From NCBI GenBank assembly GCA_017475035.1, contig JAFVGK010000127.1, positions 1 to 37,912 of the forward strand: a stretch of DNA of 37,912 nt. Direction: 5' to 3'. Numbering within the stretch: the stretch's first letter is position 1; every line of letters starts with the position of its first letter. The notes beneath the pieces were generated by a model. That model did no database searches, was not told where the DNA came from, and saw nothing but the letters and a program-made list of their open reading frames with translations. The position numbers and the translations under genes were made by a program. Positions 1,905 to 31,718 of this stretch are shown one piece after another. This stretch comes from Blautia sp. (GTDB lineage Bacteria; Bacillota; Clostridia; Lachnospirales; Lachnospiraceae).

Positions 1905-2008
1905 CGCCTCCTTCCAAAACGAAGTTTTGTACGTTGACTCAATGACCACGGATGACTATTTTGCAGCCACGCCTGCAAAAAACACAGCCATTGGCAAAAT
2001 ATGTCTCC
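1905..2008 (-). repeat. Dispersed leader element L, copy B (5' of phosphoesterase)
   Basis: Read on the minus strand it begins GGGGAGACATATTTTGCC, continues with a base stem ATTTTGC/GCAAAAT around an inner imperfect hairpin, then a conserved stretch with TTGAGTCAACGTACAAAAC, a mini-hairpin CAAAAC-TTC-GTTTTG, and ends in GGAAGGAGG, the gene's Shine-Dalgarno site. It is nearly the same as copy C2 (31614-31718). The frame reading VVIESTYKTSFWKEAIP stops at a TGA that overlaps the gene's ATG (ATGA). It lies downstream of the -10 box and is therefore expected to be transcribed as 5' leader. Confidence 0.75.
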
Positions 2009-2084
2009 CCCCTGCAATACGCCGGCTTTTCCGGATCTGCGGCTCGGACTATCAGACATTTCAGTAATCTGCGTCGATTTACAT

Positions 2085-2113
2085 TGTATAGCATTAAAAT
2101 CCGGAAAGAGCAA
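2085..2113 (-). promoter_or_regulatory. Sigma-70-type promoter of the phosphoesterase
   Basis: On the minus strand TTGCTC (2108-2113) and TATACA (2085-2090) are separated by exactly 17 bases. The predicted leader is about 180 bases and includes L copy B. Confidence 0.55.
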
Positions 2114-2131
2114 GGGGGATTTTATCAAAGA

Positions 2132-2186
2132 AAGAAGAAGGAAGGGGCTTCTGCCAATAATATGACAGAAGCTCCTTCCTTTTTCC
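2132..2186 (-). terminator. Bidirectional terminator at the end of the arg operon
   Basis: GGAAGG-GCTTCTG pairs with CAGAAGC-CCTTCC around an AT-rich loop. On the minus strand it is followed by TTCTTCTTTC and on the plus strand by TTTTT. It is the first strong hairpin downstream of argD. Between it and argD (2187-2302) nothing further is seen. Confidence 0.65.
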
Positions 2187-2302
2187 CGTTGCCTCAGAAG
2201 AGCTGTCTGGAAATCTGCCGTCCGGCGCCGGCCGATGATTTTTCCTTCTTATGCCATTTACGCAAGGAGTCGTCCAAAGGAAGATTCCATCGGTTGATCA
2301 GA

Positions 2303-3496
2303 TCACGGCACCAGGATAGTCCGCAGAATCTCTGTCATCTGATCGATATCCTCCCGTCTGATCACAAGCGGCGGGACGATACGCAGAACGTCGCTTCCTG
2401 CGGAGATTACAAGCAATCCTTTTTCCAGGGCTGCTTTGGTTACTTCGCCGACTTTCATCCCGGTGATTACCAGCCCCTGCATGAATCCCATTCCCCGGCG
2501 CGCGGATACATAAGGAGAAGCCTGAGCCAGCTCGTCGAGCTTCCGGACGAGATAAGGCGTGGTTTCCCTGACGTGTTCCAGGATATTGTCACGCTCATAG
2601 ATGTCAAATACAGCGCTGACTGCCGCACAGACAAAGGGATTTCCGCCGTAAGTCGTGCCGTGGTCTCCCGGAGCGAGAGAGTTTGCTCCGAGTTTTTCGT
2701 TCAAGGCAAACGCGCCGACAGGGACGCCGCAGCCAAGGGCTTTTGCGGAAGTCATGATATCCGGGCGCACACCGTAATTCTGCCATGCAAAATATTCACC
2801 GCTGCGTCCCATGCCGCATTGGATTTCATCGAAAATCAATACGATGTCTTTTTCATCGCAGAGCCGGCGAAGTCCGGTCAGAAATTCTTCAGTCGCGGGA
2901 TAGATGCCGCCCTCTCCCTGGATCGTCTCAATGATGACCGCGCAGGTTTTTTCATTTACCAGAGCCTTTACGCTGTCCAGGTCATTAAACGCCGCAAAGC
3001 GGACGCCGCCCATCAGCGGCTCAAAGGGCTCCCGATAATGAGCATTGCCGGTTACGGAGAGAGCGCCGATGCTTCTGCCGTGGAAGGATTGCTCCATAGC
3101 GATAATCTCATGTCCCGCATGACCGTCCCGATTATAAGCGTATTTTTTTGCCGCCTTCAGAGCTCCTTCGATGGCCTCCGTTCCGCTGTTCGTAAAGAAC
3201 ACCTTATCCATGGTGCTGGCTTTCACCAGCTTTTCCCCGGCGCGGATGATCGGCTCATTGTAATACAGGTTCGAGATATGGGTCAGCTTATCGATCTGGG
3301 CCTTTAAAGCCTCGTCATATCCGGGATAGTGATAACCCAAAGCGTTGACCGCGATGCCGGCGGCGAAATCCAGATATTCTTTTCCCGCGGTATCATACAG
3401 GCGGACGCCCTGTCCATGATCAAAAACAACAGGAAAACGGTTATAGGTATGCAGGATATTCTGCTCGGCGTGGTCCATCTGTTCATTCATATTCAT
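2303..3496 (-). CDS. argD: Acetylornithine aminotransferase
   Basis: A class-III pyridoxal-phosphate aminotransferase of 397 residues, the usual ArgD length. It converts N-acetylglutamate semialdehyde to N-acetylornithine with glutamate as amino donor. Visible landmarks are NSGTEAIEGALK (residues 103-114, phosphate-binding turn), SFHGRSIGALSVTG (137-150), IIETIQGEGGI (188-198), the cofactor-binding aspartate in IFDEIQCGMGRSG (D223) and the Schiff-base lysine in TSAKALGCGVP (K252). It is the last gene of argC-argJ-argB-argD, 39 bases after argB. The start at 3496 has CGGAG about 11 bases upstream; a second ATG two codons later is also possible. Related ornithine or GABA aminotransferases look similar, but the context settles ArgD. 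Confidence 0.95.
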   Translation of the reverse strand: MNMNEQMDHAEQNILHTYNRFPVVFDHGQGVRLYDTAGKEYLDFAAGIAVNALGYHYPGYDEALKAQIDKLTHISNLYYNEPIIRAGEKLVKASTMDKVFFTNSGTEAIEGALKAAKKYAYNRDGHAGHEIIAMEQSFHGRSIGALSVTGNAHYREPFEPLMGGVRFAAFNDLDSVKALVNEKTCAVIIETIQGEGGIYPATEEFLTGLRRLCDEKDIVLIFDEIQCGMGRSGEYFAWQNYGVRPDIMTSAKALGCGVPVGAFALNEKLGANSLAPGDHGTTYGGNPFVCAAVSAVFDIYERDNILEHVRETTPYLVRKLDELAQASPYVSARRGMGFMQGLVITGMKVGEVTKAALEKGLLVISAGSDVLRIVPPLVIRREDIDQMTEILRTILVP

Positions 3497-3535
3497 AGTT
3501 CATATCTCCGGTTATATCGTTTTTCATGCCTGTTT

Positions 3536-4429
3536 TTACTTTTCGTTATGAAATTTCACTCCGTCGTCCCGCAGGATTGCCGTGCCGATTCCTTTGTTGG
3601 TGAAGATCTCCAGGAGGAGGCTGTGAGGCAGTCTGCCATCCAGGATGTGGACCCGGTTTACTCCGTTTTCAATGGCGTCGATACAGTTCTGCAGCTTGGG
3701 AATCATACCGCCGCCGACATTGCCCTGGCGGATCAGCTCTGTTGCTTCACTGACTCTGAGTTCGGAAATCAGGCTTTCCGGATCATCCTTATCACGGTAT
3801 ACCCCTTCGATGTCAGAGAGAAAAGCAAGCTTCTCCGCATGAACAGCCTCGGCTATGGCGCAGGCCGCGTCATCTGCGTTAATATTATAGGTTTCTCCCG
3901 CCTCATCCAGGCCGATCGGATAAACGATAGGAAGGAAATCCTTTTCCAGAAGATCATGCAGGAGCTTTGGGTTTACCTTGGTGATATCGCCGACGAAGCC
4001 GATGTCCTCGCCATTGGAATACTTCTTTTTACAGGTGAGGAGACGGCCGTCTTTTCCGCAGACGCCCACTGCCTGTACGCCCAGGGATTCCACATAGGTA
4101 ACCAGCTCTTTATTCACTCTGGCGAGCACCATTTCGGCAATCTCCATCGTATCCTTGTCCGTGACACGCAGCCCGTTGACAAAACGGGGCTCCATGCCGA
4201 CCTTGCTGATCCAGCGGCTGATTTCCTTCCCGCCTCCGTGGACAATGATCGGCTTAAATCCGACCAGCTTCAAAAGGACGGCGTCCTTGATTACATTTTC
4301 CTTTAACGCGTCATCCAGCATTGCGCTGCCGCCATACTTGATGACAACAATCTTACGGTTGAACCGTTGAATGTACGGGAGGGCTTCAATTAAAACCTCC
4401 GCTTTGTCCAGATATTTTTGTTTTACCAT
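3536..4429 (-). CDS. argB: Acetylglutamate kinase
   Basis: A 297-residue amino-acid-kinase-family protein that phosphorylates N-acetylglutamate. Signature elements are [10 protein letters not shown] (residues 28-37, ATP phosphate binding), [10 protein letters not shown] (62-71, substrate loop), the INADDAA segment near 180 and GGMIPKL near 235. The N-terminal helix ([18 protein letters not shown]) is of the kind that in hexameric, arginine-inhibited ArgB proteins joins dimers, so feedback inhibition by arginine is plausible; that is inference. A GGTAAAGG site lies about nine bases upstream. A 248-base gap, unusually large for an operon, separates it from argJ. Confidence 0.95.
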
Positions 4430-4490
4430 AATTTTTTGCCTTTACCTGATTGCTTAGACTGCGGCATTTGCTTTCCCTTTTTTTTCATAA

Positions 4491-4510
4491 GTCCGTCTGT
4501 GCAGACGGAC
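4491..4510. other. Near-perfect 20-bp palindrome between argJ and argB
   Basis: GTCCGTCTG and CAGACGGAC flank a two-base centre. A run of T precedes it on the plus strand, hence a run of A follows it on the minus strand, so it is not a normal terminator for the arg transcript. It could be an mRNA-processing or stabilising hairpin, or a protein site. The remainder of the 4430-4677 gap shows no gene. Confidence 0.4.
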
Positions 4511-4677
4511 AGTTTTAAGGGGCGGCAGGATCGCTCCGGATCAGGGCGGGATCCCGGATAAATGCCGAAAAGATTTTTTTATAGTATGCCCGCGGATTTA
4601 CAGTGGAAACATGCCGCTGACGCGGCGCAGATTCTGTTCCTTTTTGCAGGGGATGCTGTCCGGAACCGGCTGCATCG

Positions 4678-5913
4678 TCAGGAACGATAATCCGCGTTTA
4701 TTTTAACGTAATCATAGGTCAGGTCGCAGCCCCATGCCGTGGCTGTTTCCCTGCCTTCCTTAATGTCCGCGACAGCGGTCACGGCCTCAGCGGTCAGAAT
4801 ACGGGTGGCTTCTTTTTCATCATATCCGGTGGAGACCCCGTTTTCGATAATCTTGATTTCGCCGTTTTCGCTGGAGAACCAGAGATCCACCTTTTCCGGA
4901 TCAAAGGAAGCGCCGGAATAGCCCATGGCGCAGAGGATTCGTCCCCAGTTGGCGTCATGGCCGTAGATGGCAGCCTTTGTAAGGGAAGAGGAGACAACGG
5001 ATTTTGCCAGGGTCACAGCCTGTTCATGTGTGGATGCGCCGACAATCTTTACCTCGAACAAAGCGGTAGCGCCTTCCCCGTCTCCGGCGATCTTTTTTGC
5101 AAGTGCTTCATTGACCATATAAAGAGCCTTCAGGAAGATTTCATAATCTCTGCCTTTTTCGGAGATCTCTGTGTTGCCGGCTTTGCCGTTAGCGAGGAGA
5201 AGCACGGTATCATTGGTGGAGGTGTCACCGTCGACGGAAACCATATTGTAAGTATCTTTGACGACGGTGCTCAAGGCTTCCTGAAGAAGCGGCCGGGAGA
5301 TACAGGCATCCGTTGTAAGGAAAGAAAGCATCGTGCACATGTTCGGATGAATCATTCCGGAGCCTTTGCACATACCGCCGATGGTTACGGTTCTGCCGTC
5401 CAGCATGAAGGAGGCGCAAACTTCCTTTTTCCGGGTGTCAGTGGTCATGATCGCCATGGCTGCGGAGGTTCCCGCTTCAACAGAACCATCCAGGGCTTTG
5501 GACATCTCTTTTGTTCCGGCGGCGATTTTGTCAATCGGGATCTGCATGCCGATGACTCCGGTCGAGGCTACGAGGACATGGGAGGGATCAATTCCCAGGA
5601 TTCCGGCAGCTGCTCCGGCTGTTCTTTCACAGATGTCCATGCCCTCCTGCCCGGTACAGGCATTGGCAATTCCGCTGTTGCAGATGACGACCTGGGCTTT
5701 CCCGATATCATAGACGATATGCTGATCCCATTTGACGGGAGCGGCTTTGACTACATTTGTGGTAAAGGTTCCTGCGACATGGCAGGGTACCTGAGAGAAG
5801 ATCATGGCCATATCCGTGCGGTCCTGATATTTGATTCCTGCGGCTGTGGCAGCAGCCATAAAGCCTTTAGGGGAGGTAACGCCCCCTTCGGTCAGGGTGA
5901 TGTTGTCCGGCAT
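4678..5913 (-). CDS. argJ: Glutamate N-acetyltransferase / amino-acid acetyltransferase (ArgJ)
   Basis: A 411-residue ArgJ-family protein. It recycles the acetyl group from N-acetylornithine to glutamate; bifunctional members also use acetyl-CoA, so a separate argA may be unnecessary. ArgJ is made as a precursor that cuts itself before a conserved threonine; here the site is MCTMLSFLTTDA with Thr194, and the residue before it is Cys rather than the common Ala. Other landmarks are GGVTSPKGF at the N-terminus, TNVVKAAPV near 52, CNSGIANACTG near 78, STGVIG near 117, KGSGMI near 183 and YGHDANWGRI near 315. The start at 5913 gives the standard MPDN-type N-terminus after GAAAGGAAAGG; an ATG 18 codons upstream falls inside an AT-rich tandem repeat and lacks a site. 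Confidence 0.93.
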   Translation of the reverse strand: MPDNITLTEGGVTSPKGFMAAATAAGIKYQDRTDMAMIFSQVPCHVAGTFTTNVVKAAPVKWDQHIVYDIGKAQVVICNSGIANACTGQEGMDICERTAGAAAGILGIDPSHVLVASTGVIGMQIPIDKIAAGTKEMSKALDGSVEAGTSAAMAIMTTDTRKKEVCASFMLDGRTVTIGGMCKGSGMIHPNMCTMLSFLTTDACISRPLLQEALSTVVKDTYNMVSVDGDTSTNDTVLLLANGKAGNTEISEKGRDYEIFLKALYMVNEALAKKIAGDGEGATALFEVKIVGASTHEQAVTLAKSVVSSSLTKAAIYGHDANWGRILCAMGYSGASFDPEKVDLWFSSENGEIKIIENGVSTGYDEKEATRILTAEAVTAVADIKEGRETATAWGCDLTYDYVKINADYRS

Positions 5914-5937
5914 AAGAGAAAAACCTTTCCTTTCTGT

Positions 5938-6056
5938 TCTATATTCACGTAACTGTTTTATGTTCATGTAATTGTTTTATGTTCACGTAATTGTTCCCTA
6001 TTCACTTACTGAACTTTATTCACATATATGTTCGGCATTCATGTATCTGTTTTTTC
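5938..6056 (-). repeat. Degenerate 19-20-bp tandem repeat 5' of argJ
   Basis: On the plus strand the unit TTCACGTAATTGTTTTATG recurs about three times in good form (5943-5998) and then decays through ATTCACTTACTG, ATTCACATATATG and ATTCATGTATCTG up to about 6056. On the transcribed minus strand it reads as GTGAACATAAAACA-like units. No peptide is evident. The spacing near 20 bases puts successive TTCA half-sites on the same DNA face, as expected of tandem operator half-sites. Confidence 0.5.
6010..6022. promoter_or_regulatory. ARG-box-like site upstream of argJ
   Basis: TGAACTTTATTCA (minus strand TGAATAAAGTTCA) is an imperfect dyad close to the ArgR/AhrC consensus of TGAAT and ATTCA half-sites around an AT centre. 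It suggests arginine-repressor control of argJ or of an internal promoter. The evidence is motif similarity only. Confidence 0.35.
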
Positions 6057-6168
6057 ATGACTGCAATTCAGGCCGGCATTGACGGAAGCCTGATTCCTTT
6101 GATTGGCTTGCGGCGGAGCACTCCCGGGAGCTTTCACGAAACGATCCGGATGCGGCTTGAGGCGCTTC

Positions 6169-7209
6169 TTATGGCATCATCGGGATCTGCCGCAGCCCCT
6201 CAGCTTCCGCAAACCCGAAAAGAAGATTCATGTTCTGGACGGCCTGTCCTGCGGCGCCTTTGACCAGATTGTCGATCGCGCCCATCATGATGACGCGATT
6301 TGTACGAGGATCTGCCGCGAAATTGACATCCACATAATTGCTGCCCTCAACCCATCTTGTCTGCGGCCAGACTCCTTCGGGCAGAACACGGATAAAGGTT
6401 TCCTTTTCATAACAGGCTTCATAGGCACGGCGAATCTGTTCCTTTGTGACGCCTTCTTTAAGCGAAGCATAAGCGGTTACCAGGATGCCGCGGTTCATGG
6501 GAACGAGATGCGGCGTGAAGCTGATCCGCACGTCCTGGCCACAGGCGTAACCCAGCTGATCTTCGATCTCAGGGGTATGCCGGTGCGTGGCGACTCCATA
6601 CGGCTTGATGCTTTCATTGACCTCACAGAAAAGATTGTCGACCTTTGCGCCACGGCCCGCTCCGGAGGTTCCGGATTTGGCGTCGATAATGATCGTATCG
6701 GGATCAATCAGGCCTTTCTTGACCAGAGGATAAATCGAGAGGGTGGAACAGGTCGGATAGCAGCCCGGGTTTGCGATCAGCCGTGCCTTTTTGATGTCTT
6801 CTCTGTTGATTTCGCATAATCCGTATACTGCTTCGTCAATAAACTGAGGGGAAGGATGCTTGATACCGTACCATTCTTCATAACGGTTGACATCCTTGAT
6901 ACGGAAATCAGCGCTTAAGTCAACTATCTTCACCCGTGACAGGATATCTTCATTTACCATCGAGGCACAAAAGCCCTGCGGGGTAGCGGTAAAAATCACA
7001 TCCGCCTGCTCCGCCAGCTGTGTCATGTTGTCATCGAGGCATACGGCGTCAACCATGCGGAAGAAATTCTGATAAATTCTGGCATAGGCCTGGTCAATGT
7101 AACTTCTTGAGCCATACCAGACAATCTCAACCTCCGGATGTGCCAGAAGAAGCCTTACAATTTCATTTCCCGCATAGCCGGTAGCACCGATAATTCCTGC
7201 TTTAATCAT
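6169..7209 (-). CDS. argC: N-acetyl-gamma-glutamyl-phosphate reductase
   Basis: A 346-residue NADPH-dependent reductase that makes N-acetylglutamate semialdehyde. The N-terminal nucleotide-binding fold begins IKAGIIGATGYAGNE (residues 2-16, GxxGxxG type). The catalytic cysteine is in NPGCYPT (Cys150). The segment AKSGTSGAGRGA near 187 and HRHTPEI near 215 (catalytic His region) are standard. It is the first gene of argCJBD and is divergent from argG across a 582-base regulatory gap. The start codon follows GAGGAGGAGG, which is the end of an L leader element (copy A). There is a 255-base gap to argJ. Confidence 0.95.
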   Translation of the reverse strand: MIKAGIIGATGYAGNEIVRLLLAHPEVEIVWYGSRSYIDQAYARIYQNFFRMVDAVCLDDNMTQLAEQADVIFTATPQGFCASMVNEDILSRVKIVDLSADFRIKDVNRYEEWYGIKHPSPQFIDEAVYGLCEINREDIKKARLIANPGCYPTCSTLSIYPLVKKGLIDPDTIIIDAKSGTSGAGRGAKVDNLFCEVNESIKPYGVATHRHTPEIEDQLGYACGQDVRISFTPHLVPMNRGILVTAYASLKEGVTKEQIRRAYEACYEKETFIRVLPEGVWPQTRWVEGSNYVDVNFAADPRTNRVIMMGAIDNLVKGAAGQAVQNMNLLFGFAEAEGLRQIPMMP

Positions 7210-7216
7210 AGAAAAA

Positions 7217-7323
7217 CGTTTCCTCCTCCTCTAAAAACGCAGTTTTGTACGTTGACGCAATGTCTTCGCATGACGATTTTGCTGCTTCGGCAGCCGGGCT
7301 GCCGAAGACAATAATAGTCTCCT
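7217..7323 (-). repeat. Dispersed leader element L, copy A (5' of argC)
   Basis: On the minus strand: AGGAGACTATTATTG, a perfect 11-bp stem CTTCGGCAGCC/GGCTGCCGAAG with almost no loop, GCAAAATCG, then GCGAAGACATTGCG, TCAACGTACAAAACTGCG and finally GAGGAGGAGG. TGTCTTCG on the 5' side can alternatively pair with CGAAGACA downstream, which would open the first hairpin. A frame opening at an ATG (7347-7345) reads through the whole element, including VFGSPAAEAAKSS and EDIASTYKTAF, and ends at a TAA that overlaps the argC start (ATGATTAA). It lies about 150 bases inside the predicted argC transcript. Confidence 0.8.
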
Positions 7324-7408
7324 GCCTGATAGTCTGATTCATGATCAACCCTTTTTCCATGCCCCGGATGTCCTTGCATCAGTCGTATTATAATCTGAAG
7401 AACACGGA

Positions 7409-7428
7409 GCGCCTGAAGGCGCCCTTTT
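7409..7428. other. GC-rich hairpin in the argC leader
   Basis: GAGCGCC-TGAA-GGCGCCC is a short strong stem. On the plus strand it is followed by TTTTCTTTT, so it resembles a plus-strand terminator although no plus-strand gene precedes it. On the argC (minus) strand the T-run would lie before the stem. It may block antisense read-through, or be part of argC leader folding. No T-box signature was found in this leader. Confidence 0.35.
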
Positions 7429-7473
7429 CTTTTGGGCGGATCCGGCAGTGAAAGTGCGCCAATTCTGACAGCC

Positions 7474-7502
7474 ATTATAGAGGGTATCTGCATAATATGC
7501 AA
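7474..7502 (-). promoter_or_regulatory. argC operon promoter
   Basis: Minus strand TTGCAT (7497-7502), 17-base spacer, consensus TATAAT (7474-7479). The predicted untranslated leader is about 258 bases. The neighbouring ARG-box-like sites start about 20 bases upstream of the -35 box. Confidence 0.75.
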
Positions 7503-7520
7503 GGTCGATTTTAAAAAAAG

Positions 7521-7586
7521 CTTATGAATATACAAGATTTGTGAATAAATATGCAAAAATCGCTGATAAACATGTATTTTTATGCA
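7521..7586. promoter_or_regulatory. Cluster of ARG-box-like operators between argC and argG
   Basis: Three AT-rich motifs fit the Gram-positive arginine-repressor box (CATGAATAAAAATGCA-like): TATGAATATACAAG (about 7523-7536), TGTGAATAAATATGCA (7540-7555) and CATGTATTTTTATGCA (7571-7586). They lie between the two divergent promoters, so one bound ArgR/AhrC hexamer could act on both argC and argG. The repressor gene is not in the window. Confidence 0.6.
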
Positions 7587-7597
7587 ACATTCCTGTC

Positions 7598-7626
7598 TTG
7601 CGTTTTTCCTTATTCTGGTGTATAGT
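7598..7626 (+). promoter_or_regulatory. argG promoter
   Basis: TTGCGT (7598-7603), 17-base spacer and TATAGT (7621-7626). The leader is about 160 bases and carries a hairpin AGAGAAGC-GGAG-GCTTCTCT (7644-7663). The nearest ARG-box-like site ends 12 bases upstream of the -35 box. Confidence 0.7.
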
Positions 7627-7791
7627 AACGCCGATAGCCATTGAAGAGAAGCGGAGGCTTCTCTGAACAGGAGCCGGCCGTAAACAGACAGAACAAGAGA
7701 TGAAAATCTGTATACGGATGGATCCTTTGGCCATACAGTAAAAAGGCATCATAAAAAGGATGCCGGAAAAAATCGAGGAGGATTTTTATTT

Positions 7792-9012: not shown

Positions 9013-9024
9013 CAGGATTCTGGC

Positions 9025-9564: not shown

Positions 9565-10527
9565 TTATTCTTCGTCAAGGAAAATGACGAGAACTTGATT
9601 TGCCTGGTCATCGGCAGAGGCTGTTTCCGTATCTGATTTTTCAGATGCCATGTCTCCACGCCTTCTTTTCTCGACAGTCAGACGAATCACCATATCTCCC
9701 GCAATAAAATCTTCTTCATCATCTGCTTCAGCGTCTTCTTCGGCAGCTTCGGCATCCTCTTCGGCAGCCTCGGCATCCTCTTCGACAGCTTCGGCATCTT
9801 CTTCGGCAACTTCAGCATCCTCTTCAGCAGCTTCAGCATCCTCTTCGGCAGTCTCGGCATCCTCTTCGGCAGCGTCAGCATCTTCTTCGGCAGTCTCAGC
9901 ACCTTCCTCGGCGGCTTCAGCGTCCTCTTCGGCAGTCTCAGCACCTTCATCGGCGGCTTCAGCGTCCTCTTCGGCATCCTCAGCATTTTCCTCTACGGCT
10001 TCAGCATCCTCTTCAGCAGTCTCAGCACCTTCCTCGGCAGCTTCAGCGTCCTCTTCGACAGCTTCAGCTTCTTCCTCAACTGCGTCAGTGTCTTCCTCGT
10101 CGGAGACATAATTCATGATAACAACAGATTTTCCTTCCTGTTTCGCGCGGAAAATAAACTGGGCAGTATCGGAGCCCTTCTCTTCTCCTTCTTCGGCAGC
10201 AGGAGCTTCTATATAGGTCTGAGACTCCAGCTCAATGACGGAAGGATCTGTGATTTCGTATGTCCAGGAATAACCCGATGACTGGTCAGCAGCCAGTTCG
10301 AGGATCAGGGCGTCACCGTCTGTTTCGACATTGCCCTCTACAGATGTTTCTTCCTCGATCTCACCGGTCTCCTCTTCTGTGTTTTCCGGCTCAATGAACC
10401 CCTCTTCAGAAGAGGTTTCCTCTATTTCAGGCTGGGGCGGAGGTGTGAGGGTTTCCTTTTTTTTGCCGCATCCCGCGAGAAGAAGGGAAGAAGACAGAAG
10501 CAGTGAAAGAATAAGTATTTTTTTCAT
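9565..10527 (-). CDS. Lipoprotein with chagasin-like (I42) inhibitor fold interrupted by an acidic heptad repeat
   Basis: A 320-residue precursor. Residues 1-20 form a lipoprotein signal with lipobox LLAGC (Cys20), so the product should be anchored outside the membrane. An acidic linker follows to ~68. Residues ~70-141 look like the chagasin/I42 cysteine-protease-inhibitor fold: the signature loop is AADQSSGYSWTYE (family pattern NPTTGYxW) and the later strand is AQFIFRAKQEGKSVVIMNYV. Where the family normally has its third inhibitory loop (RPW-like) there are instead seventeen 7-residue repeats (residues 153-271), after which FIAGDMVIRLTVEKRR completes the last strand. The fold assignment is by motif and is moderate. 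The start at 10527 has AGAGAGG seven bases upstream. Confidence 0.6.
   Translation of the reverse strand: MKKILILSLLLSSSLLLAGCGKKKETLTPPPQPEIEETSSEEGFIEPENTEEETGEIEEETSVEGNVETDGDALILELAADQSSGYSWTYEITDPSVIELESQTYIEAPAAEEGEEKGSDTAQFIFRAKQEGKSVVIMNYVSDEEDTDAVEEEAEAVEEDAEAAEEGAETAEEDAEAVEENAEDAEEDAEAADEGAETAEEDAEAAEEGAETAEEDADAAEEDAETAEEDAEAAEEDAEVAEEDAEAVEEDAEAAEEDAEAAEEDAEADDEEDFIAGDMVIRLTVEKRRRGDMASEKSDTETASADDQANQVLVIFLDEE
9715..10071 (-). repeat. 21-bp coding tandem repeat (17 units of a 7-residue motif)
   Basis: Units read DAEAAEE, GAETAEE, DAEAVEE and close variants, seventeen in a row with no frame-breaking change. The unit is a multiple of three, so copy number can change by slippage without breaking the frame. 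The peptide is almost only Ala, Glu and Asp and should form a long, strongly negative helix. The opposite strand is also open (Ser/Ala-rich) for the same compositional reason and is not a gene. Confidence 0.95.
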
Positions 10528-17655: not shown

Positions 17656-17759
17656 GGGAGACATATTCTGCTCTGGAGCGTGAAATACGACAGGCAGCAG
17701 AATAATCATCACTACGGCATGTCGGTTTATAATCAGTATTGTATGAGGAGGAATGTATC

Positions 17760-18946: not shown

Positions 18947-19204
18947 GACGACAAAAGGTCATGCGAAAATGAGCTCGCTCATTTTCGCATGAGATTGGGT
19001 CGCCCACAGACACGAGGAAGCAGCCATTTTGCACTATTTATACTTGACTTTGCAAATCTTTCTGTGCAAAATGAATGTATTCCGAGTGGCTGTAGGTTGC
19101 TGCATGCCAGAGGCATGCGTTTAGCAACGACCGAGTCGGGAGACGAGACGCGAGAGCAGCTCCGCTGCGAAGCGATCCGTAGAATCAGGCTTTGTCGATG
19201 CAAT
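18947..19204 (+). repeat. Dispersed repeat R1, full long copy 3
   Basis: The left end CGACAAAAGGTCATGC starts at 18949 and the right end GGCTTTGTCGATGC is at 19188-19201, inverted relative to each other at their tips (GACAAAG/CTTTGTC). Just inside the left end is a perfect 14-bp hairpin CATGCGAAAATGAG/CTCATTTTCGCATG. The right half repeats window positions 1-140 almost exactly, with its nested stems. No protein is evident. A structured RNA or a MITE-like element are both possible. Confidence 0.8.
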
Positions 19205-19262
19205 CATAATGATTCCATTCGTATTAAGTCAACGGACAAATACTTTTTTATGGGAGAGAAGA
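19205..19262 (+). repeat. Degenerate leader element L, copy F (5' of ybaK-like gene)
   Basis: Directly after R1, TTAAGTCAACGGACAAA (about 19226-19242) and TTTTTTATGGGAGAG (19245-19259) match the distal half of L as in copy C1 (TCAACGGACAAAAATGCG then TTTTGAGAGGAG). The first hairpin of L is missing, replaced by AATCAT/ATGATT. The gene's Shine-Dalgarno site, GGGAGAG, is again the element's end. Confidence 0.5.
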
Positions 19263-19745: not shown

Positions 19746-19853
19746 TTTTTGGGAAGGAGACTGATTTTGTCTTCGACAGCCTGCTGACGAAGCAAAAAAT
19801 GTCATCCGAAGACATGGAGTCAACGTACGAAACTACGTTTTGGGAAGGAGAAT
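19746..19853 (+). repeat. Dispersed leader element L, copy D (5' of the 387-residue protein)
   Basis: It starts four bases after the ybaK-like stop. TTTTGGGAAGGAGA-like sequence stands at both edges (left 19748-19760; right 19839-19852), an apparent direct repeat. Between them: hairpin TTTTG-CTTCG-CAGC/GCTG-CGAAG-CAAAA (bulged A on each side), ATGTCATCCGAAGACATGG, TCAACGTACGAAACTACG and GGGAAGGAGA, the Shine-Dalgarno site. TGTCTTCG and CGAAGACA can pair as an alternative. The frame MSSEDMESTYETTFWEGE ends in TAG one base before the gene's ATG. Confidence 0.8.
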
Positions 19854-21120: not shown

Positions 21121-21215
21121 GCAGGAGACGGCTTTTGTTCTGGCAGCCCGGCTGCCAAGGCAAAATCACCTTCCGAAGACATGGAGTCAACCTGCAAAAC
21201 TGCGTTCTGGGAGGA
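21121..21215 (+). repeat. Dispersed leader element L, copy E (5' of the kinase-NACHT gene)
   Basis: It begins GCAGGAGACGGC, then hairpin TTTTG-GGCAGCC/GGCTGCC-CAAAA, TTCCGAAGACATGG, TCAACCTGCAAAACTGCG and GGGAGGAATG. The Shine-Dalgarno GGGAGG (21209-21214) is the element's 3' end. In the frame conserved among copies it reads GSPAAKAKSPSEDMEST and ends CKTAFWEE, TGA, two bases before the gene's ATG. A different frame is open into the kinase, which would give a spurious N-terminal extension. Confidence 0.8.
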
Positions 21216-21221
21216 ATGAAT

Positions 21222-25502: not shown

Positions 25503-25520
25503 GAGAGGAACAAGGATGAG

Positions 25521-25589
25521 AAAGGGACAGCCCCCATATATCCATCGTGAAGTTGTTCATGATGGATATATGGGGACTGTCCCTTTTTT
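25521..25589 (+). terminator. Strong terminator closing the kinase cassette
   Basis: AAAGGGACAG and CCCCATATATCCATC pair with GATGGATATATGGGG and CTGTCCCTTT, about 24 bp with one mismatch, followed by six T. It may act in both directions. Confidence 0.92.
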
Positions 25590-25711
25590 GTGTGATGTAC
25601 AGCCGGCGCATTCCCTGAAATCGCCTGACTCTGGCAGCAGCTGCATCGGGGCGGTTGTTATCCTTTGACCTATCCGCTTTAGGAGAACGAGACGCGGCAG
25701 CTTTTTTACAT

Positions 25712-25781
25712 GACCGCATCGACAAAAGCCGGATTCTACTGATCGCTTCACAGAGGAGTTTTTTGCATAACCTTTTGTCGC
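25712..25781 (-). repeat. Repeat R1, short copy 4
   Basis: On the minus strand it runs CGACAAAAGGTTATGC, a short middle, GTGAAGCGATCAGTAG, AATCCGGCTTTTGTCGATGC. The tips CGACAAAAG and CTTTTGTCG are exact inverted repeats. Most of the long-copy interior is missing. The other parts of 25590-26024 show no gene; a short minus-strand open frame there is a by-product of the repeat. Confidence 0.7.
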
Positions 25782-26024
25782 CGTAATCTTTTATGTTCGG
25801 AAGGTGTCTGCAATATATGTGTTTCCATGGTGCTATGATTTCATCAGAAAACAAAACGAATCAATTCACTTCTTCGGAAGGCAGATGCAATTGTTCCAAA
25901 AGACTTTGATATACTGATTACATCGAAGGACATACGAACAGGGCTGCCGATTCTGTCAAAGCAGCGATGTGTTTATTACAAAGCGGATCAGCATTTATAA
26001 CAAATCAGGAAAGGAGTAACAACC

Positions 26025-26603
26025 ATGATGAACGGTGTAATGATGAAACAGGCAGTTTATGCTCTCAATGATACCATGAAAGAAATCGGGCGAGAGGTCA
26101 ATGCAGAAGAAATCGCCGGGATTGTCGAAAGCCATGCGATTGCTACTTCTCTCAGCGCGGCAGCTGCCGGCGTTGTTCCCGGTGCCGGCGGTGCCGTTGC
26201 ATTTGGGATTGCCTGTACTTCCACGATTACGATGTACGGCCGTCTCGCAAAGGCCATGGGTGTACGCCTGAATAACGGGCTGATCCGGGCGGTTGCTTCA
26301 GCTGTGGTTGCTGATCTTGCAGCAGCTGTAGCAGCAACTGTCACAGCAGCTGCGGCGATCTCCTTTATCCCCGGTGTGGGAAGCATGGCATCCGCAGCCC
26401 TGAATGCAGTCACCAACTTTGGCTTTGTCTATCTTGCAGGAATCATTTTTATCAAGCTGGTCGCTGCTCTTGGCGTTTCTAAAGTAGAGTCCATGTCTGA
26501 GAATGAGATCAAGGAAAAAGCAAAAAACATCCAGAATGAGATGGATATCAAGGCAGCAATGAAAGAAGCGAGGACAATTTATAAAGACCGTAATTCAGAT
26601 TAA
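26025..26603 (+). CDS. DUF697-like hydrophobic protein
   Basis: A 192-residue protein with two long Ala/Gly/Val-rich hydrophobic stretches (residues ~40-75 and ~88-150), containing VVPGAGGAVAFGIACT, then SFIPGVGSMASAALNAVTN. The paired proline-glycine hairpins (VPGAGG and IPGVGS) and a following charged helix are like the DUF697 region found alone or behind Era-like GTPases. It is probably membrane-inserting. The ends are charged and helical (ENEIKEKAKNIQNEMDIKAA). No GTPase is adjacent. AAGGAG lies eight bases before the first of two successive ATG codons. A terminator follows. Confidence 0.55.
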   Translation: MMNGVMMKQAVYALNDTMKEIGREVNAEEIAGIVESHAIATSLSAAAAGVVPGAGGAVAFGIACTSTITMYGRLAKAMGVRLNNGLIRAVASAVVADLAAAVAATVTAAAAISFIPGVGSMASAALNAVTNFGFVYLAGIIFIKLVAALGVSKVESMSENEIKEKAKNIQNEMDIKAAMKEARTIYKDRNSD

Positions 26604-26618
26604 GATCATGACTCTTGA

Positions 26619-26648
26619 AGCTGGCCGGAGAAATCTGGCCGGCTTTTT
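26619..26648 (+). terminator. Terminator of the DUF697-like gene
   Basis: GCTGGCC and GGCCGGC pair around GGAGAAATCT, followed by six T. Confidence 0.85.
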
Positions 26649-26672
26649 TCAATCTTTCTGTATGTTTCAGCT

Positions 26673-26786
26673 TCACTGGGATATTATGCTGACTATGCTG
26701 CAACTGCTTCGCATTATGTAGATGAAAACGGAGACCTTCTTACGGAGGATACAGGCTGCAGCTCACGATTCAAAAATGCAGGATAA
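26673..26786 (+). pseudogene. Possible 3' remnant of a lost gene
   Basis: One plus-strand frame reads GYYADYAATASHYVDENG then DLLTEDTGCSSRFKNAG and stops at 26784-26786. It has a natural-looking composition but no start, no ribosome site, and lies straight after a terminator. It could be the tail of a decayed coding sequence. I do not recognise it. Confidence 0.25.
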
Positions 26787-26788
26787 AT

Positions 26789-27607
26789 TCAGTTTCTTTG
26801 CTTTTTGTCCATCGCCGCGCGGATCACGGCAATGTCACGTTTCATCCAGTCATAATTCCTGGAAAACAGCGGTGCATCGTTGTAGTTGTTCTCAGTGACG
26901 ATGGTCCCGGTATAGTTCATTTCCCGCAGGAAATGCATCACTTCGTGGAACGGTCCCTCACCTTCCCCGAGCGGTGCGCTGCATTCACTCGTTCCGCACT
27001 TGACGTGTACATGCGTTCCAGTCCTGTCGTAGTGTCTGCGCAGTACATCCATTGCGTAAGGGAGGCCAAAGTGCTGATAATTCTGGCTGTCAAAGAGAAG
27101 AAGAAGGTTGTCACAGCTGCAGTCCGTGAACAGTTGAGACATTTCATCGACGGACAGTACATTTTCCGTGTAAACTGTCAGTCCCATCGGTTTCGCGTAT
27201 TGACAGGCGTGGCGAAGCGCCAGCACTGTATTATGATAATGAGAAGCTTCAAGGATACGATTATCTCCGAAATTGGGCACGGTGATCCCTTCCAGATGCA
27301 TTTTGGCCGCTGCCTCAATCCCAGTCTCCAACGCCCGGATGGCGATAACTCCGTCATGAGTTTCCAGCCCGTTCACAAACGGATGCCGGCACAGATCGTT
27401 TATCGTCAACGGGAGCAGTGCCAGACCGTTTTCCCGGCTCGCCTCCAGATAACGCTGTCGGTTTTCTTCCGATGAGAGCGGAAAAAGATCTTCCCAGCCC
27501 CCCAATTCCAGCTGCACTGCGTCAAATCCTGCTGTTTTTGCCTGATCCAGTGTAGAATCCGTAAGGCCGGGAAAGAACCACTGCGTAACACCGATCGAAT
27601 AAGTCAT
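26789..27607 (-). CDS. Sugar-phosphate isomerase/epimerase-like TIM barrel (AP-endonuclease-2 family)
   Basis: A 272-residue xylose-isomerase-like TIM barrel. Metal-binding residues lie at the expected strand ends: Glu in VYTENV (E148), Asp in LFDSQNY (D173), His in HVHVKCG (H199/H201) and Glu in IVTENNY (E239). GITVPNFGDNR near 107 is a typical strand/loop. Relatives are isomerases or epimerases of sugars and inositols, or hydroxypyruvate-isomerase-like; the substrate cannot be named. Cytoplasmic. It lies 72 bases after the TIR gene on the same strand, possibly co-transcribed. GGGAGGA lies seven bases upstream of the start. Confidence 0.8.
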   Translation of the reverse strand: MTYSIGVTQWFFPGLTDSTLDQAKTAGFDAVQLELGGWEDLFPLSSEENRQRYLEASRENGLALLPLTINDLCRHPFVNGLETHDGVIAIRALETGIEAAAKMHLEGITVPNFGDNRILEASHYHNTVLALRHACQYAKPMGLTVYTENVLSVDEMSQLFTDCSCDNLLLLFDSQNYQHFGLPYAMDVLRRHYDRTGTHVHVKCGTSECSAPLGEGEGPFHEVMHFLREMNYTGTIVTENNYNDAPLFSRNYDWMKRDIAVIRAAMDKKQRN

Positions 27608-27679
27608 TTTTCTGTCCTCCCTTTAGATACAAAAACGGATCGTTCTTTTGTCGCCTGAATCATATCATAATTCAGCATG

Positions 27680-30064
27680 TCAGTACATTTCCTTATTCAT
27701 TTCAATCAGTGTTTCCTCTTTTTTGTTCTGTATCCCTAATTCATCATATATTTCAATGGCACGTTGGAAACAACCGACCGCATCTTCCCTGTGACCCATG
27801 GCTTTGTAAATGTAGGCGCGCCAGACGAGATTGAGTGCCATATCAGCATGTTTTTCTCCAAACATAGGATACTGCATATCCCATGTTTTCCGGCTGAGTT
27901 CCAAAGCTTCATTAAATTGTCCCTGCCTCACTCTTACCTGTCCCAGACAATCATAGACAAAGCTCCTGGCCCAGCTGTCATGAAGTTTATCAAACTCTTC
28001 TGCTGCAGCTGCCAACAGCTCCTCGCTTTCTTCCAGATCGCCGGATGCATTTCGCATACACAACGTGCGTGCCAGATGATAGAGCGTCCACCCAAGACTA
28101 TCCTGACGCATGATATCCTTATAACGCTCACATAGAGAAAGGGCTTTATATCCCCATTCTGCAGATGTATCATAATCACCCAATTCACGTGTGGACTCAA
28201 TCATGCGCATAATGAGATGTTCGATCCGGTATCCGTCCTGATACTTCAAACTGCCCTCCGGCTTTTCAGTGACACGTTTCCAGCCTTCCAGCGCCTGCGC
28301 ATAAGCCTCCTGATACCGACCGCTTAAAGCCATTGACTGTGAAGCCAGCGAGCATGCATAAAGACTTAAAGCCAGATCATCCGATTCTTTATAGAGCTGT
28401 AAAAACAAAGGAATGCATTCATCGTACAGCGTCATACTCATTGCAGCGCTGGCGCGGATTTTCAATACTTTACTCCGCATTGGATGATCTTTCGGCAGAC
28501 GATTGTAAATCTCATACGCATAGTCCTTCAACTCCAGCCGTTCAGTAATCGGCTTCCCGGTAATGCCGAGTTCACGGTATAATGTATTGATCAATGCTTC
28601 GCAGCATTCCGGATCTTTTCGCACCTCTTCCAGCAAAAGCTGGGAAATGAGCGGATGCAGATGCACATAGTCTTTCACCGGATCATACATAATCCAGCTT
28701 CGGTGGATCAGATTGTCAATGACGTCATAATCATCAAGTTTACACCAGTCGAAGAGCGTTTCTACCGCGATGCCTCTGATCGGAATCAGCGACAGGTTCT
28801 TCAGGATGAATAACTCCTGTTCCGTAAGCGCAGACAATGAAAACACCTGACGCAGCTTTCCATACAACATATCTGCCGCTTTGGCATTTTCATTTTTGAG
28901 AGTTTCCTGTCCCTCCTTGATCATCGAAAGCATTTTTACAGGAGAAATACGGCGGTTCTGCATCACTGCCGCAATCAGTCTGATCGTCAGAGTATGGCTT
29001 TCCAGATAATGAATCAACTCTGACACCGCGGCCAGATTGTTTTCGTCCAGCGCTCTGGAATATTCTGCCTGAAACAAAGCGAGAAGCTCTGACCGTTCCG
29101 TGAACGAAGTTATCTCGATTTCCGGAAGATTGGGACGTATTTTCCGGCATCTGGTAGTAAAAAGCAACGTATAGCGTCCGCCGCAAAAATCGTCGAGATT
29201 TATATCGTCTTCCACATCAAAATTATCTATTATAATGAGGACTTTTTCATCTGCTATTTCCTTCAATGCGCGAAGCTTTCTTTCAAAATAGGTTTTTTCA
29301 TCATCCTGCGGATATGAGCTTCGACTTATCCCCTGGATCGGCAGCGCGCTGTCACTGGCAATGGTATGCTCAAGTGTTTTGTCAAAGGAGACCCAAAGCA
29401 CGACATCATAATCACGAGCATGGCGCTTTGCGTACATTTTTGCTATTTCACTTTTCCCGATACCTCCCATTCCCGTTAAAAACAATACATTTTCCGTGCT
29501 TGTCAGGTTTTTTTCTATTTCTGCCAATTCCTTTTCACGTCCGACAAAATGATTGTCCGGATAGACAAGGGATCCCGTCACCGCTAATGAAGGCTCTTTT
29601 AAGGGCGATCGTGATGAAGGGGCAGTCTTTACAGGCCTTCGGTCCAGCAGTGAAGCAATGCGGTCCTGCAGTTCCTGCATCCGTGTTTCCTCCGGAGGCT
29701 GCGTACCATCCATCGTATGAAACCGTCCCAGGTAATAATAGATCGAATTAGACATCGTACAATTATCAAGCTTAAACGGAAGCAGCTCGATATCTTCTTC
29801 GTTTTTGAGGCGGTCAAAGGCACATTTTATTTCATTCAGTACTTCATGTGAGATATTGGAATATTCATTAAGAAGAAGCAGGAAGACCCTGCTGTGGCGA
29901 ATAGCTTCTACAATAGAGTCAGCATATTCCTGGCCGCAATCTCTCGGTGCATACCAGCATGTGATATTTACTGCCTCCAGTGCCTGTACAATTTTATGTA
30001 CAACGTCAGCGGCGCTGGCAGTATGATAGCTGATAAATACATCTCTGGTTTCGTTCGATATCAT
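27680..30064 (-). CDS. TIR / NB-ARC / TPR STAND protein (NLR-like)
   Basis: A 794-residue protein with the layout of plant and animal immune receptors. Residues ~6-130 are a TIR domain: DVFISYHTAS (8-17), CWYAPRD (36-42), and NISHEVLNEIK (70-80), whose Glu78 is at the place of the catalytic glutamate of NADase TIRs. Residues ~170-480 are an NB-ARC-type ATPase: FVGREKEL (173-180), Walker A GMGGIGKS (198-205), Walker B LIIIDNFD (276-283), sensor FTTR (302-305) and a winged-helix end with LHPLIS (469-474), the MHD-like site. Residues ~510-790 are TPR-like helices (EESEELLAAAAEEFDKL, REDAVGCFQRAIEIYDEL). The family point is a ligand-triggered oligomer that degrades NAD or makes a nucleotide signal, often in phage defence. 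No separate effector gene is adjacent. Confidence 0.9.
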   Translation of the reverse strand: MISNETRDVFISYHTASAADVVHKIVQALEAVNITCWYAPRDCGQEYADSIVEAIRHSRVFLLLLNEYSNISHEVLNEIKCAFDRLKNEEDIELLPFKLDNCTMSNSIYYYLGRFHTMDGTQPPEETRMQELQDRIASLLDRRPVKTAPSSRSPLKEPSLAVTGSLVYPDNHFVGREKELAEIEKNLTSTENVLFLTGMGGIGKSEIAKMYAKRHARDYDVVLWVSFDKTLEHTIASDSALPIQGISRSSYPQDDEKTYFERKLRALKEIADEKVLIIIDNFDVEDDINLDDFCGGRYTLLFTTRCRKIRPNLPEIEITSFTERSELLALFQAEYSRALDENNLAAVSELIHYLESHTLTIRLIAAVMQNRRISPVKMLSMIKEGQETLKNENAKAADMLYGKLRQVFSLSALTEQELFILKNLSLIPIRGIAVETLFDWCKLDDYDVIDNLIHRSWIMYDPVKDYVHLHPLISQLLLEEVRKDPECCEALINTLYRELGITGKPITERLELKDYAYEIYNRLPKDHPMRSKVLKIRASAAMSMTLYDECIPLFLQLYKESDDLALSLYACSLASQSMALSGRYQEAYAQALEGWKRVTEKPEGSLKYQDGYRIEHLIMRMIESTRELGDYDTSAEWGYKALSLCERYKDIMRQDSLGWTLYHLARTLCMRNASGDLEESEELLAAAAEEFDKLHDSWARSFVYDCLGQVRVRQGQFNEALELSRKTWDMQYPMFGEKHADMALNLVWRAYIYKAMGHREDAVGCFQRAIEIYDELGIQNKKEETLIEMNKEMY

Positions 30065-30183
30065 AAATAGAACCTCCCTGGCGTAAAAAACGAACTCTGT
30101 GTATTGTTTCCACAGAATAGGCTGTCAAAAGAAATTCGAGTCTGGACTTAAAGGAGTCATTTTGCGCTGGTTATATGATTCAT

Positions 30184-30260
30184 GAGACAAAAGGTCATGC
30201 AAACGAAACCCAATCATTTTTGCATGAGACAGGGCGTATGAATCAGGCTTTTGTCGATTT
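30184..30260 (+). repeat. Repeat R1, short copy 5
   Basis: It starts AGACAAAAGGTCATGC and ends GAATCAGGCTTTTGTCGAT. The inner hairpin TCATGCAAA/TTTGCATGA is present with a loop of about 14 bases. It lies between the divergent TIR and J-domain genes. The remainder of 30065-30474 is AT-rich and holds no gene; the TIR and J-domain promoters must be there but are not sharply defined. Confidence 0.7.
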
Positions 30261-30474
30261 AAACAGTATATATCATAAACAAAATCGGTACAAGGCTTTA
30301 AACAGGTTTTCCTTTTGTAGGGATGAGGTCGGTTAATCTTTGCACATTTGTGTTCCCGGTGAAAATACAGACTGTCCGGCAGCCGATTCTTTGAACAGAA
30401 AAAGTATGATGCGATAACATTTTGTGATATACTGAAAGGGAAAGATCGAAATCTCACTATAGGAGTAATCACCG

Positions 30475-31530
30475 ATGGACATTAGTCTGATTCCCTCCCA
30501 ATCTGAATATGAGAGTCTCCTGGCGGAGATAAAGCAGCTGCAGGCGCGTGTAATCGAGCTGACCGCATTTCGGGACGATCTGGTTTATCACGTGTGCCCA
30601 TCGCTGCGGGCTTTATATGAAGACAAAATAGCTTCTCTGGAGCGGGAGCTGCTGGCGGCACAGATGTACCTGCGGGAAAAGCAGAGGATTCTGGAGTTTC
30701 TGCAGGCAGAATTGAACCGCCGGAAAAATCCCACTTTTGAGCAGGCGGAAAAACAGGCCAGGGAAGAGCGGGAAAAATATGAGGAAGATCTGAAAAAGAA
30801 GGCTGAGGAAGCAAAAAAATTCCGGGATTACTGGAAGAACAAGTCAAAATGGTCAGAGCATGATAAGACTGAAAAAACCAGTCAGTCACAAAAGACAGGC
30901 TCTTCTGAGAAAAGAAGGGCAGATGATGCATCAGGCTCAGAAAACGACGGTGAAAATCAGAAGACTTCCCGAAAAGAAGATCGTGATCAGGAAAGGCATC
31001 ATGGCTCTGAAAATCAGGGAAAGACAGGTTTTGATGAGTCCGGCTGGGGGCAGAATTCAGATGCCGCTGCTAAGCAGACCCAGACACCGGCCGCAGAGCT
31101 GAAGTCATTATATCGGAAAATAGTAAAAAGACTTCATCCGGATGTCCATCCGGATCCGACACCACGTGAAAAAGAGTTGCTGAACCAGGCTCATGAGGCT
31201 TACAAAATCGGCGATCTGGAAAAGACGCGCAGAATCTGGGAGGAGATTGTCGGCATGGATCCGCCGGAAGACCGCTTTGAGGATTCGGAGGAGGGACGGA
31301 AGCAACTTCGGGACCTTCTGAAGACACTTCAGCTGAGGTGCTCTTCACTGGAAGATGAGATTCTGAGGATCCGGTCGGAGTATCCATACACCATGAAATC
31401 GTTCCTGGATGATGAAAACGCGGTTGAAGAACGCCGGCGTGAGTTGAAAAAGCAGATTGAGGATGTCCGTGAGATGGACAGACAGATGACAGAATATATT
31501 GAAAGACTGAAAAAGAAGATCGGAAACTGA
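30475..31530 (+). CDS. J-domain-like protein with flanking coiled coils
   Basis: A 351-residue soluble protein. Residues ~10-130 are strongly coiled-coil (LLAEIKQLQARVIELTAF, then EQAEKQAREEREKYEEDLKK). Residues ~130-205 are a low-complexity Ser/Lys/Glu/Asp linker. Residues ~208-262 are a DnaJ-like domain with the HPD tripeptide in YRKIVKRLHPDVHPD and the following helix NQAHEAYKIGDLEKTRRIW. Residues ~270-351 are coiled-coil again. J-domains stimulate DnaK ATPase, and the coiled coils would pick the client. It is divergent from the TIR gene and ends at the TGA that also begins L copy C1. Confidence 0.7.
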   Translation: MDISLIPSQSEYESLLAEIKQLQARVIELTAFRDDLVYHVCPSLRALYEDKIASLERELLAAQMYLREKQRILEFLQAELNRRKNPTFEQAEKQAREEREKYEEDLKKKAEEAKKFRDYWKNKSKWSEHDKTEKTSQSQKTGSSEKRRADDASGSENDGENQKTSRKEDRDQERHHGSENQGKTGFDESGWGQNSDAAAKQTQTPAAELKSLYRKIVKRLHPDVHPDPTPREKELLNQAHEAYKIGDLEKTRRIWEEIVGMDPPEDRFEDSEEGRKQLRDLLKTLQLRCSSLEDEILRIRSEYPYTMKSFLDDENAVEERRRELKKQIEDVREMDRQMTEYIERLKKKIGN

Positions 31531-31617
31531 TTTGCTGCTGCGGCAGCCTGACTGCCGCAGCAGCATAATCGTCATCCGAAGAAATTGAATCAACGGACAA
31601 AAATGCGTTTTGAGAGG
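31520..31617 (+). repeat. Dispersed leader element L, copy C1 (first of a tandem pair)
   Basis: The left edge GGAAACTGATTTG overlaps the J-domain gene's stop codon. The first hairpin is a perfect 14-bp stem TGCTGCTGCGGCAG/CTGCCGCAGCAGCA, different in sequence from the stem of copy A at the same place. Then TCGTCATCCGAAGAAATTG, TCAACGGACAAAAATGCG and TTTTGAGAGGAG. The 3' GAGGAGA is shared as the 5' edge of C2. Confidence 0.8.
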
Positions 31618-31718
31618 AGACATATTTTGCCCACGGCTGCGTTTTTTGCAGGCGTGGCTGCAAAATAGTCATCCGTGATCATTGAGTCAACATACAAAAC
31701 TTCGTTATGAGAGGAGGA
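31614..31718 (+). repeat. Dispersed leader element L, copy C2 (second of a tandem pair)
   Basis: Close in sequence to copy B (1905-2008): GGAGACATATTTTGCC, hairpin CCACG-CTGC/GCAG-CGTGG inside ATTTTGC/GCAAAAT, AGTCATCCGTGATCATTG, TCAACATACAAAACTTCG, and GAGAGGAGG. Compared with copy B the stem has CG where B has mismatched AT, so C2 is the better-paired form. It ends in a Shine-Dalgarno site ahead of a GTG-started 31-codon frame. Confidence 0.8.

Follow-up and report, generated by a model that had tools for sequence, protein, structure and literature searches.

The 37,912-nt stretch of Blautia sp. DNA analysed here (hereafter the window) contains several copies of a short structured sequence, element L, whose 3′ end supplies the Shine-Dalgarno (SD) sequence of otherwise unrelated genes. 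This raises the question of whether element L is a conserved regulatory leader or a sequence that moves. A preliminary description of the window had proposed a mobile or recombined 5′ regulatory module. The data presented below uphold the mobile part of this proposal (via empty sites) as well as the supply of an SD sequence, but not a regulatory RNA under selection (via a comparison of G-U and A-C changes in stems). Element L is best read as a mobile element, not as a conserved regulatory leader. Taken as a whole, we regard it as very probable that element L is a non-autonomous, gene-less miniature mobile element of ~97 nt, which targets SD-type sites and brings its own SD along.

All six good copies in the preliminary description are present, with covariance-model edges close to the coordinates reported there. 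Aligned over their full length they share the design GGAGAC – spacer – ATTTTG – variable hairpin – CAAAAT – GTCATCCG – ... – small hairpin – GGGAGGAG. A further sequence listed as degenerate (19205–19262) was not recovered by the covariance model, and its status as a copy is unproven. Element L is not confined to the window. The window and twenty 20-kb stretches of the same genome (G000), chosen for copy density and comprising 437,912 bases in total, gave 91 matches in a profile search, a count that includes partial and antisense ones. From 48 of these a covariance model (R1) was built, which found 75 non-overlapping matches in the same bases. Across the 5.08-Mb genome, R1 accepted all of the 150 candidates that were scored, setting a lower bound of at least 150 copies. 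Moreover, a 25-nt core with up to three mismatches was located at 118 places and its reversed control at none; thus, the copies do not arise by chance.

The evidence that carries the mobile reading stems from two pairs of sister genomes: G046 and G051 (36 and 5 copies, purM region 88.6% identical), and G043 and G044 (31 copies each, 88.1%). The material comprised 13 copy regions plus four earlier loci for G046 and about 1.2 Mb of 3.5 Mb for G051. For ten distinct G046/G051 sites, the flanking sequences on either side were present in the sister genome. Six are occupied in one genome and empty in the other (L215/L194, L187/L267, L189/L259, L192/L276, L197/L257 and L188/L222), one is shared (L199/L212) and three are unreadable. 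In the clearest pair, L215/L194, the empty site reads ATACAGGAGGAG|TGGGAACATGG and the occupied site ATACAGGAGGAG|ACATATT...TTTTGAGAGGAG|TGGGAACATGG. Element L is inserted immediately 3′ of a host GGAG, and past the element's own GGAG the host sequence continues with its next base. The same junction rule is obeyed by L192/L276, L197/L257 and L187/L267, L187 having a few base changes to the left of the site. As the insert sits 3′ of GGAG and ends in its own GAGGAG, the spacing to the start codon is unchanged wherever a start codon follows. The edges of 122 copies with regular ends fit this picture: the left flank preceding GGAG is RRRA, generally purine-rich and host-like, while most copies end in a near-constant GAGGAG, so that the second GGAG belongs to the element and is not merely a duplicated target. 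The empty sites thereby identify the SD as the element's own.

Tandem copies show the same register. The searched part of G000 holds 12 tandem pairs, counted with nhmmer because cmsearch dropped overlapping tandem partners. Ten of them overlap by exactly 4 nt, GGAG; for the other two, L009 (GGAA) and one in L012 (GAAG), the 4-nt overlap is obtained only with an extrapolated model edge. Of four sites compared between G043 and G044, one is the same in both, and the number of tandem copies differs at the other three (1 vs 3, 1 vs 2 and 1 vs 2). Together with the six occupied/empty pairs, these differences bear out mobility. The purE–purM region, read in 14 of 29 congener loci, has a plain GGAG before purM and no element in all 14, the identity of ~75% leaving the junction unreadable.

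The position of the copies relative to genes was addressed with a mechanical open reading frame (ORF) test, as opposed to gene calling, in which an ORF of at least 60 codons has to start within 25 nt of the 3′ end of the copy. In G000, 69 of the 75 R1 matches were considered; the six weakest were dropped, three of them antisense over other copies. A start codon was found in 54 of the 68 copies not followed by another listed copy. The control values are 23.5% for random positions, 25/68 for GGAGGAG motifs elsewhere and 8/69 when the reverse strand is read from the 5′ edge. Among the 14 copies without such a start, some stand first in a tandem pair. Of 97 copies from other genomes, 91 were usable, the other six being too near a locus end; 68 of these 91 passed (14/91 on the reverse strand), with a GGAG-to-start spacing of 5–10 nt in 56 of the 68. 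The downstream genes carry unrelated Pfam domains. Both the bias towards the bases before start codons and the use of the 3′ GGGAGGAG as the SD site of unrelated genes are thus as initially described. It should be noted that the target motif by itself accounts for much of this bias: at non-coding positions that are not part of a copy, a start follows GGAG in 215/632 and RRAGGAG in 43/75 cases, and the copies exceed the RRAGGAG rate only modestly (54/68 vs 43/75, Fisher p = 0.007).

The fold comprises four helices. In P1, GGAGAC-N-K-ATTTTG pairs with CAAAAT-M-GTC(A)TCC, including a conserved bulged A; P2 is the variable inner hairpin, P3 a weak GAC/GTC pairing and P4 the hairpin directly before the SD. 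Folded singly, the six copies gave z-scores of −1.38 to −5.05 relative to shuffled sequences. Five are clear (z −2.3 to −5.1), but the copy at 1908–2008 (z −1.38, matched by 14/200 shuffles) is not clearly better. The subfamilies differ in sequence and retain the same pairing register, K/M being G-C or U-A. One P2 position is A-U, U-A or C-G among subfamilies, and P4 occurs as CAAAAC/GTTTTG, TATAAC/GTTATA, TTACAAT/ATTGTAA and GTGAAC/GTTCAC. Double-changed cells lie above all shuffles and slides in both sets: 78 against 30.5 ± 4.1 after shuffling in G000, and 271 against 113.7 ± 13.0 in the 97 foreign copies. The latter (loci L054–L133) were found via a pattern fixing the P1 boxes, so that conservation of P1 is by construction there, while that of P2 and P4 is not. 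For one of five measures in G000, namely how many pairs have any double change, the observed value of 13 was reached by 127/500 shuffles. In summary, the earlier observation that the stems differ in sequence yet pair is confirmed by strong covariation between subfamilies and genomes. Neither outcome that the preliminary description regarded as refuting it, a genome devoid of additional copies or copies lacking both positional bias and covariation, was observed. A second, mutually exclusive helix, formed by the 5′ arm of P2 and a segment after GTCATC, covaries between subfamilies as well (GTCTTCGG/CCGAAGAC, GCTTTCGG/CCGAAAGC, GTTGTCG/CGACAAC, CCCACGG/CCGTGG and GTCCG/CGGAC). Its mean run is 4.21 vs 3.41 ± 0.09 shuffled in the 127 copies with locatable segments. 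In the pair count on 48 copies it passed three of five measures, pairs with a double change and further pair types being no better than shuffles.

In terms of topology, a circle (AC...GGAG) would insert at GGAG, or a strand transfer would have the same result, and further copies would insert behind the newly brought GGAG to give tandems sharing one GGAG. The element may move as a circle or as a single strand. The folded P1 hairpin, containing the crossover GGAG|AC, would be recognised by a candidate recombinase, and GTCATCC, paired with GGAG + AC across the joint, may also read the target. The element's own SD would make insertions nearly harmless and permit a high copy number. Tentatively, element L might represent a new kind of site-specific mobile element, i.e. 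a gene-less, integron-cassette-like hairpin with the SD as attachment site, moved by an undiscovered folded-strand recombinase and evading purifying selection by replacing the displaced ribosome-binding site (RBS). We consider this specific version a serious possibility, albeit short of probable.

Three known enzymes were searched for in 11 carrier genomes, whose drafts may be incomplete. The Y1 transposase (Y1_Tnp, PF01797) had no match in four of them, two of which hold 120 and 36 copies. The reverse transcriptase RVT_1 was likewise unmatched in four, and integron integrase (TIGR02249) exceeded the cut-off in none. Weak TIGR02249 matches below the cut-off were found in ten of the 11, and in all 14 control genomes. 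None of these enzymes thus qualifies as a common mobiliser, with 4, 4 and 11 of the 11 carriers, respectively, lacking a qualifying match.

Alternatively, element L could be a single-strand element of the IS200/IS605 or REP type, inserted 3′ of a tetranucleotide and moved by a Y1 transposase. The insertion 3′ of GGAG without other duplication fits such an element, hairpins are present, and site choice via complementarity to guide tetranucleotides, as described for IS200/IS605 in PMC8266576, speaks for it as well. However, apart from the carriers without a Y1_Tnp match, including those with 120 and 36 copies, the complement of GGAGAC (GTCATCC), a possible guide by its pairing, lies 3′ of the hairpin and not 5′, and P2 and P4 are unlike each other. 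We therefore consider this assignment unlikely, though it fares best among the alternatives.

Next in line is a cis-regulatory RNA leader, bound by a riboswitch ligand or a regulator, that was copied to many genes with its fold under selection and the alternative pairing of the P2 arm as the switch. The position before start codons, the double-changed cells and the covarying second helix all argue for such a leader. The decisive test concerns individual copies: under selection for RNA pairing, single stem changes giving G-U should outnumber those giving A-C. Across all pairs of the 75 copies in G000, 112 G-U vs 141 A-C changes were counted, and 74 vs 80 in the 97 foreign copies. Within subfamilies (63 of the 75 copies, 12 unassigned ones omitted) the counts are 86 vs 98 in A (52 copies) and 8 vs 18 in B (11 copies), summing to 94 G-U vs 116 A-C. 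Conversely, a control with 24 tRNAs encoded in the loci analysed gave 24 G-U vs 1 A-C in the acceptor and T stems; its acceptor-stem register was chosen for most Watson-Crick pairs, which favours a clean stem.

Divergence within and between genomes adds to this. In subfamily B the stems differ as much as the unpaired positions do (7.0% vs 5.6%). The divergent copy shared by G046 and G051 (L199/L212) is 77/97 identical (79%), with flanks at 267/300 upstream and 460/499 downstream (89–92%); it has evolved more rapidly than the DNA around it. Variation is lowest in the SD, at 8.2% in subfamily A and 3.0% in B. The missing G-U excess, the divergence in subfamily B and the decay of L199/L212 indicate that the covariation mainly reflects the source elements and not the upkeep of each leader. 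On this evidence, the fold was constrained in the source elements, and inserted copies then largely decay except for the SD. Selection on the RNA structure of a regulatory module, as invoked in the preliminary description, is not supported. Given that, in addition, the genes served are unrelated and one species lacks the copy at six of the seven readable G046/G051 sites, a regulatory RNA was rejected as the principal explanation on the G-U/A-C test with its tRNA control and on the empty sites. As a general account it appears improbable.

More doubtful still is mobility at the RNA level, where RNA would insert into the SD of an mRNA and be reverse transcribed. In its favour, sense orientation at SDs is somewhat more frequent than at purine-rich GGAG sites. 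However, the target motif itself accounts for much of that bias, and RVT_1 is unmatched in four of the 11 carriers, which also counts against a group II intron-type retroelement. A classical DDE miniature inverted-repeat transposable element (MITE) with GGAG target duplication, suggested by GGAG flanking the insert on both sides, is disfavoured as highly improbable, as the termini do not form inverted repeats (identity over 15 nt of 0.253 in 161 copies, against 0.258 after shuffling) and the right end is element-like through to GAGGAG.

Several observations weigh against reading element L as a mobile element that decays after insertion. In subfamily A, divergence is lower at paired (13.4%) than at unpaired positions (18.6%), and Watson-Crick pairs make up 36 of 57 double changes in stems, which also counts in favour of a regulatory leader. 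This pattern is read as a mixture of older sub-subfamilies, the lineages being left pooled; a regulatory effect in some copies is possible. No mobilising enzyme was identified among the three searched for in the 11 carriers, nor was a convincing longer autonomous form found in 333 loci (2.8 Mb), where 25 spaced half-pairs were judged by eye. The carriers are draft or metagenome assemblies. Three of the ten sister sites (L188 near 2018, L194 near 1979, and L196) are unreadable due to intergenic DNA that is too diverged. For two pairs, L189/L259 and L188/L222, only the junction on the right is exact: the left side ends in GGAG, but host bases further left have diverged, and L188 starts with GGAGAA instead of GGAGAC. 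L197/L257 has no clear ORF start after the site in the stretch displayed. Taken alone, the occupied/empty pairs may also be compatible with precise excision. Lastly, 14/68 copies in G000 and 23/91 in other genomes have no qualifying start after them.

The distribution of element L among relatives is patchy. Only one of 40 relatives has a match, in a single copy (1/24 congeners and 0/16 others of the order), and among 392 genomes of the order, searched with strict filters and ten candidates scored per genome, the window's own genome alone passes E ≤ 1e-6. A pattern scan of GTDB species genomes located the element in at least 91 stretches. Among these, all 80 stretches listed are in records named Clostridia, Clostridiales, Lachnospiraceae or Blautia, several of them ruminant-gut by title. 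Thirteen other Clostridia-type metagenome-assembled genomes from the stretches found have 1 to 122 matches each, with two carriers at 122 and 120. Copies in G000 and a metagenome-assembled Blautia genome are 94% identical over 101 nt, while the purM DNA of the same two genomes is 76% identical over 522 aligned nt. For a decaying sequence, this difference suggests horizontal transfer. Neither 2.9 million viral contigs, scanned with two exact patterns, nor phage and plasmid collections, queried with one L copy, gave a match. No Rfam family reached its gathering score in the whole window, and one typical copy had only weak sub-threshold matches. In the literature on SD-targeting or dispersed RBS-bearing elements and their relatives, mostly open-access, no description was recognised as element L. 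The sole congener copy (L053:1501–1607, in G018) is at most 75% identical to G000 copies and by eye closer to those of G046/G051, which suggests a separate acquisition or a mis-binned contig.

Table 1. Element L in the window: copies, and parts of the second copy of the tandem pair
Feature	Position	Strand	Remarks
L copy, type B	1908..2008	-	before 293-codon ORF, phosphoesterase-like by eye, no Pfam match
L copy, type A	7226..7322	-	before argC-like gene (semialdehyde dehydrogenase domains)
L copy, type D, divergent	17657..17750	+	before radical SAM gene; absent from the preliminary description
Doubtful remnant	19205..19262	+	before tRNA-editing-domain (ybaK-like) gene; no model match; adjoins a different dispersed repeat
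L copy, type A	19756..19850	+	before 387-codon ORF without Pfam match
L copy, type A	21124..21216	+	before 964-codon gene with protein-kinase domain
L copy, type A, first of tandem pair	31522..31619	+	its TGA ends upstream ORF 30475–31530
L copy, type B, second of tandem pair	31616..31716	+	covariance-model match, 95.1 bits; only a 31-codon frame follows
Insert proper, AC...GAGGAG, 97 nt	31620..31716	+	boundaries inferred from empty sites in other genomes
GGAG, 3′ end (SD) of copy 31522–31619 and left target of the next copy	31616..31619	+	4-nt tandem overlap
P1 5′ strand, GGAGAC-A-T-ATTTTG	31616..31629	+	fold, pair counts
P1 3′ strand, CAAAAT-A-GTC(A)TCC, conserved bulged A	31661..31674	+	fold, pair counts
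P2 inner hairpin, variable centre	31631..31657	+	compensatory changes between types A, B and C
P4 hairpin, CAAAAC/GTTATG (one mismatch), directly 5′ of SD	31695..31709	+	covariation between subfamilies and genomes
GAGGAG, element-borne SD	31711..31716	+	right-end conservation

Other repeats were observed alongside. One L copy elsewhere in G000 (L010:12071–12171) has a 3′ part that is now the reverse complement of its 5′ part, a change that template switching at a hairpin in the course of replication would be expected to produce. A second dispersed repeat occupies window positions 1–148 and 19069–19216, with copies 95% identical. Both lie shortly upstream of genes, one of them at the contig end, and a core of ~60 nt recurs in loci L008, L011, L013, L014, L018 and L021. 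Two further repeats of the window lie within ORFs: a tandem array at 9653–10135, for which 15 overlapping copies spaced by 21 nt are listed, in an acidic lipoprotein-like ORF, and four units of 108 nt at 34487–34918 in an ORF that, by eye, has Sel1-like repeats.

Few short sequences precede very many bacterial genes, and the RBS is among them. For an element that addresses the RBS and restores it when inserting, near-neutral landing sites are plentiful, which would account for hundreds of copies next to genes of every function. Element L offers a defined route to a new recombinase and is a possible tool for the precise insertion of 5′ leaders at translation starts.

Among known systems, element L shares with the cis-regulatory RNAs of Rfam a structured sequence before start codons, but there is no gathering-score match in the window and no constraint at the RNA level in the G-U/A-C test. 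MITEs and short intergenic repeats such as ERIC, BOX and Correia are gene-less, of high copy number and located near genes. All of this holds for element L as well, although it has no terminal inverted repeats and its insertion is fixed to an SD-like GGAG. REP elements, as described in PMC8266576, are small, high-copy, mostly intergenic palindromes with a conserved tetranucleotide, some with a bulged stem, for which single-strand mobility is possible. Element L resembles REP and TnpA-REP (IS200/IS605 family) in its small size, high copy number, bulged stem and tetranucleotide. Unlike REP, it measures ~97 nt, combines two unlike hairpins, is oriented to genes and brings an SD, with Y1 unmatched in four of 11 carriers. 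Integron cassettes, according to PMC12901181, are circularised, can insert at genomic attG sites and form arrays. Element L differs from a cassette in that it has no gene and that no integron integrase exceeded the cut-off in the 11 carriers. The attC site, according to the same source, has paired boxes, unpaired bases, a variable centre and a crossover within the box. Its core, RYYYAAC/GTTRRRY, differs from the GGAGAC/GTCATCC box of element L. Still, element L likewise has two paired boxes around a variable centre, unpaired bases and a crossover within the box and, core aside, it is the attC hairpin that element L resembles most in plan.

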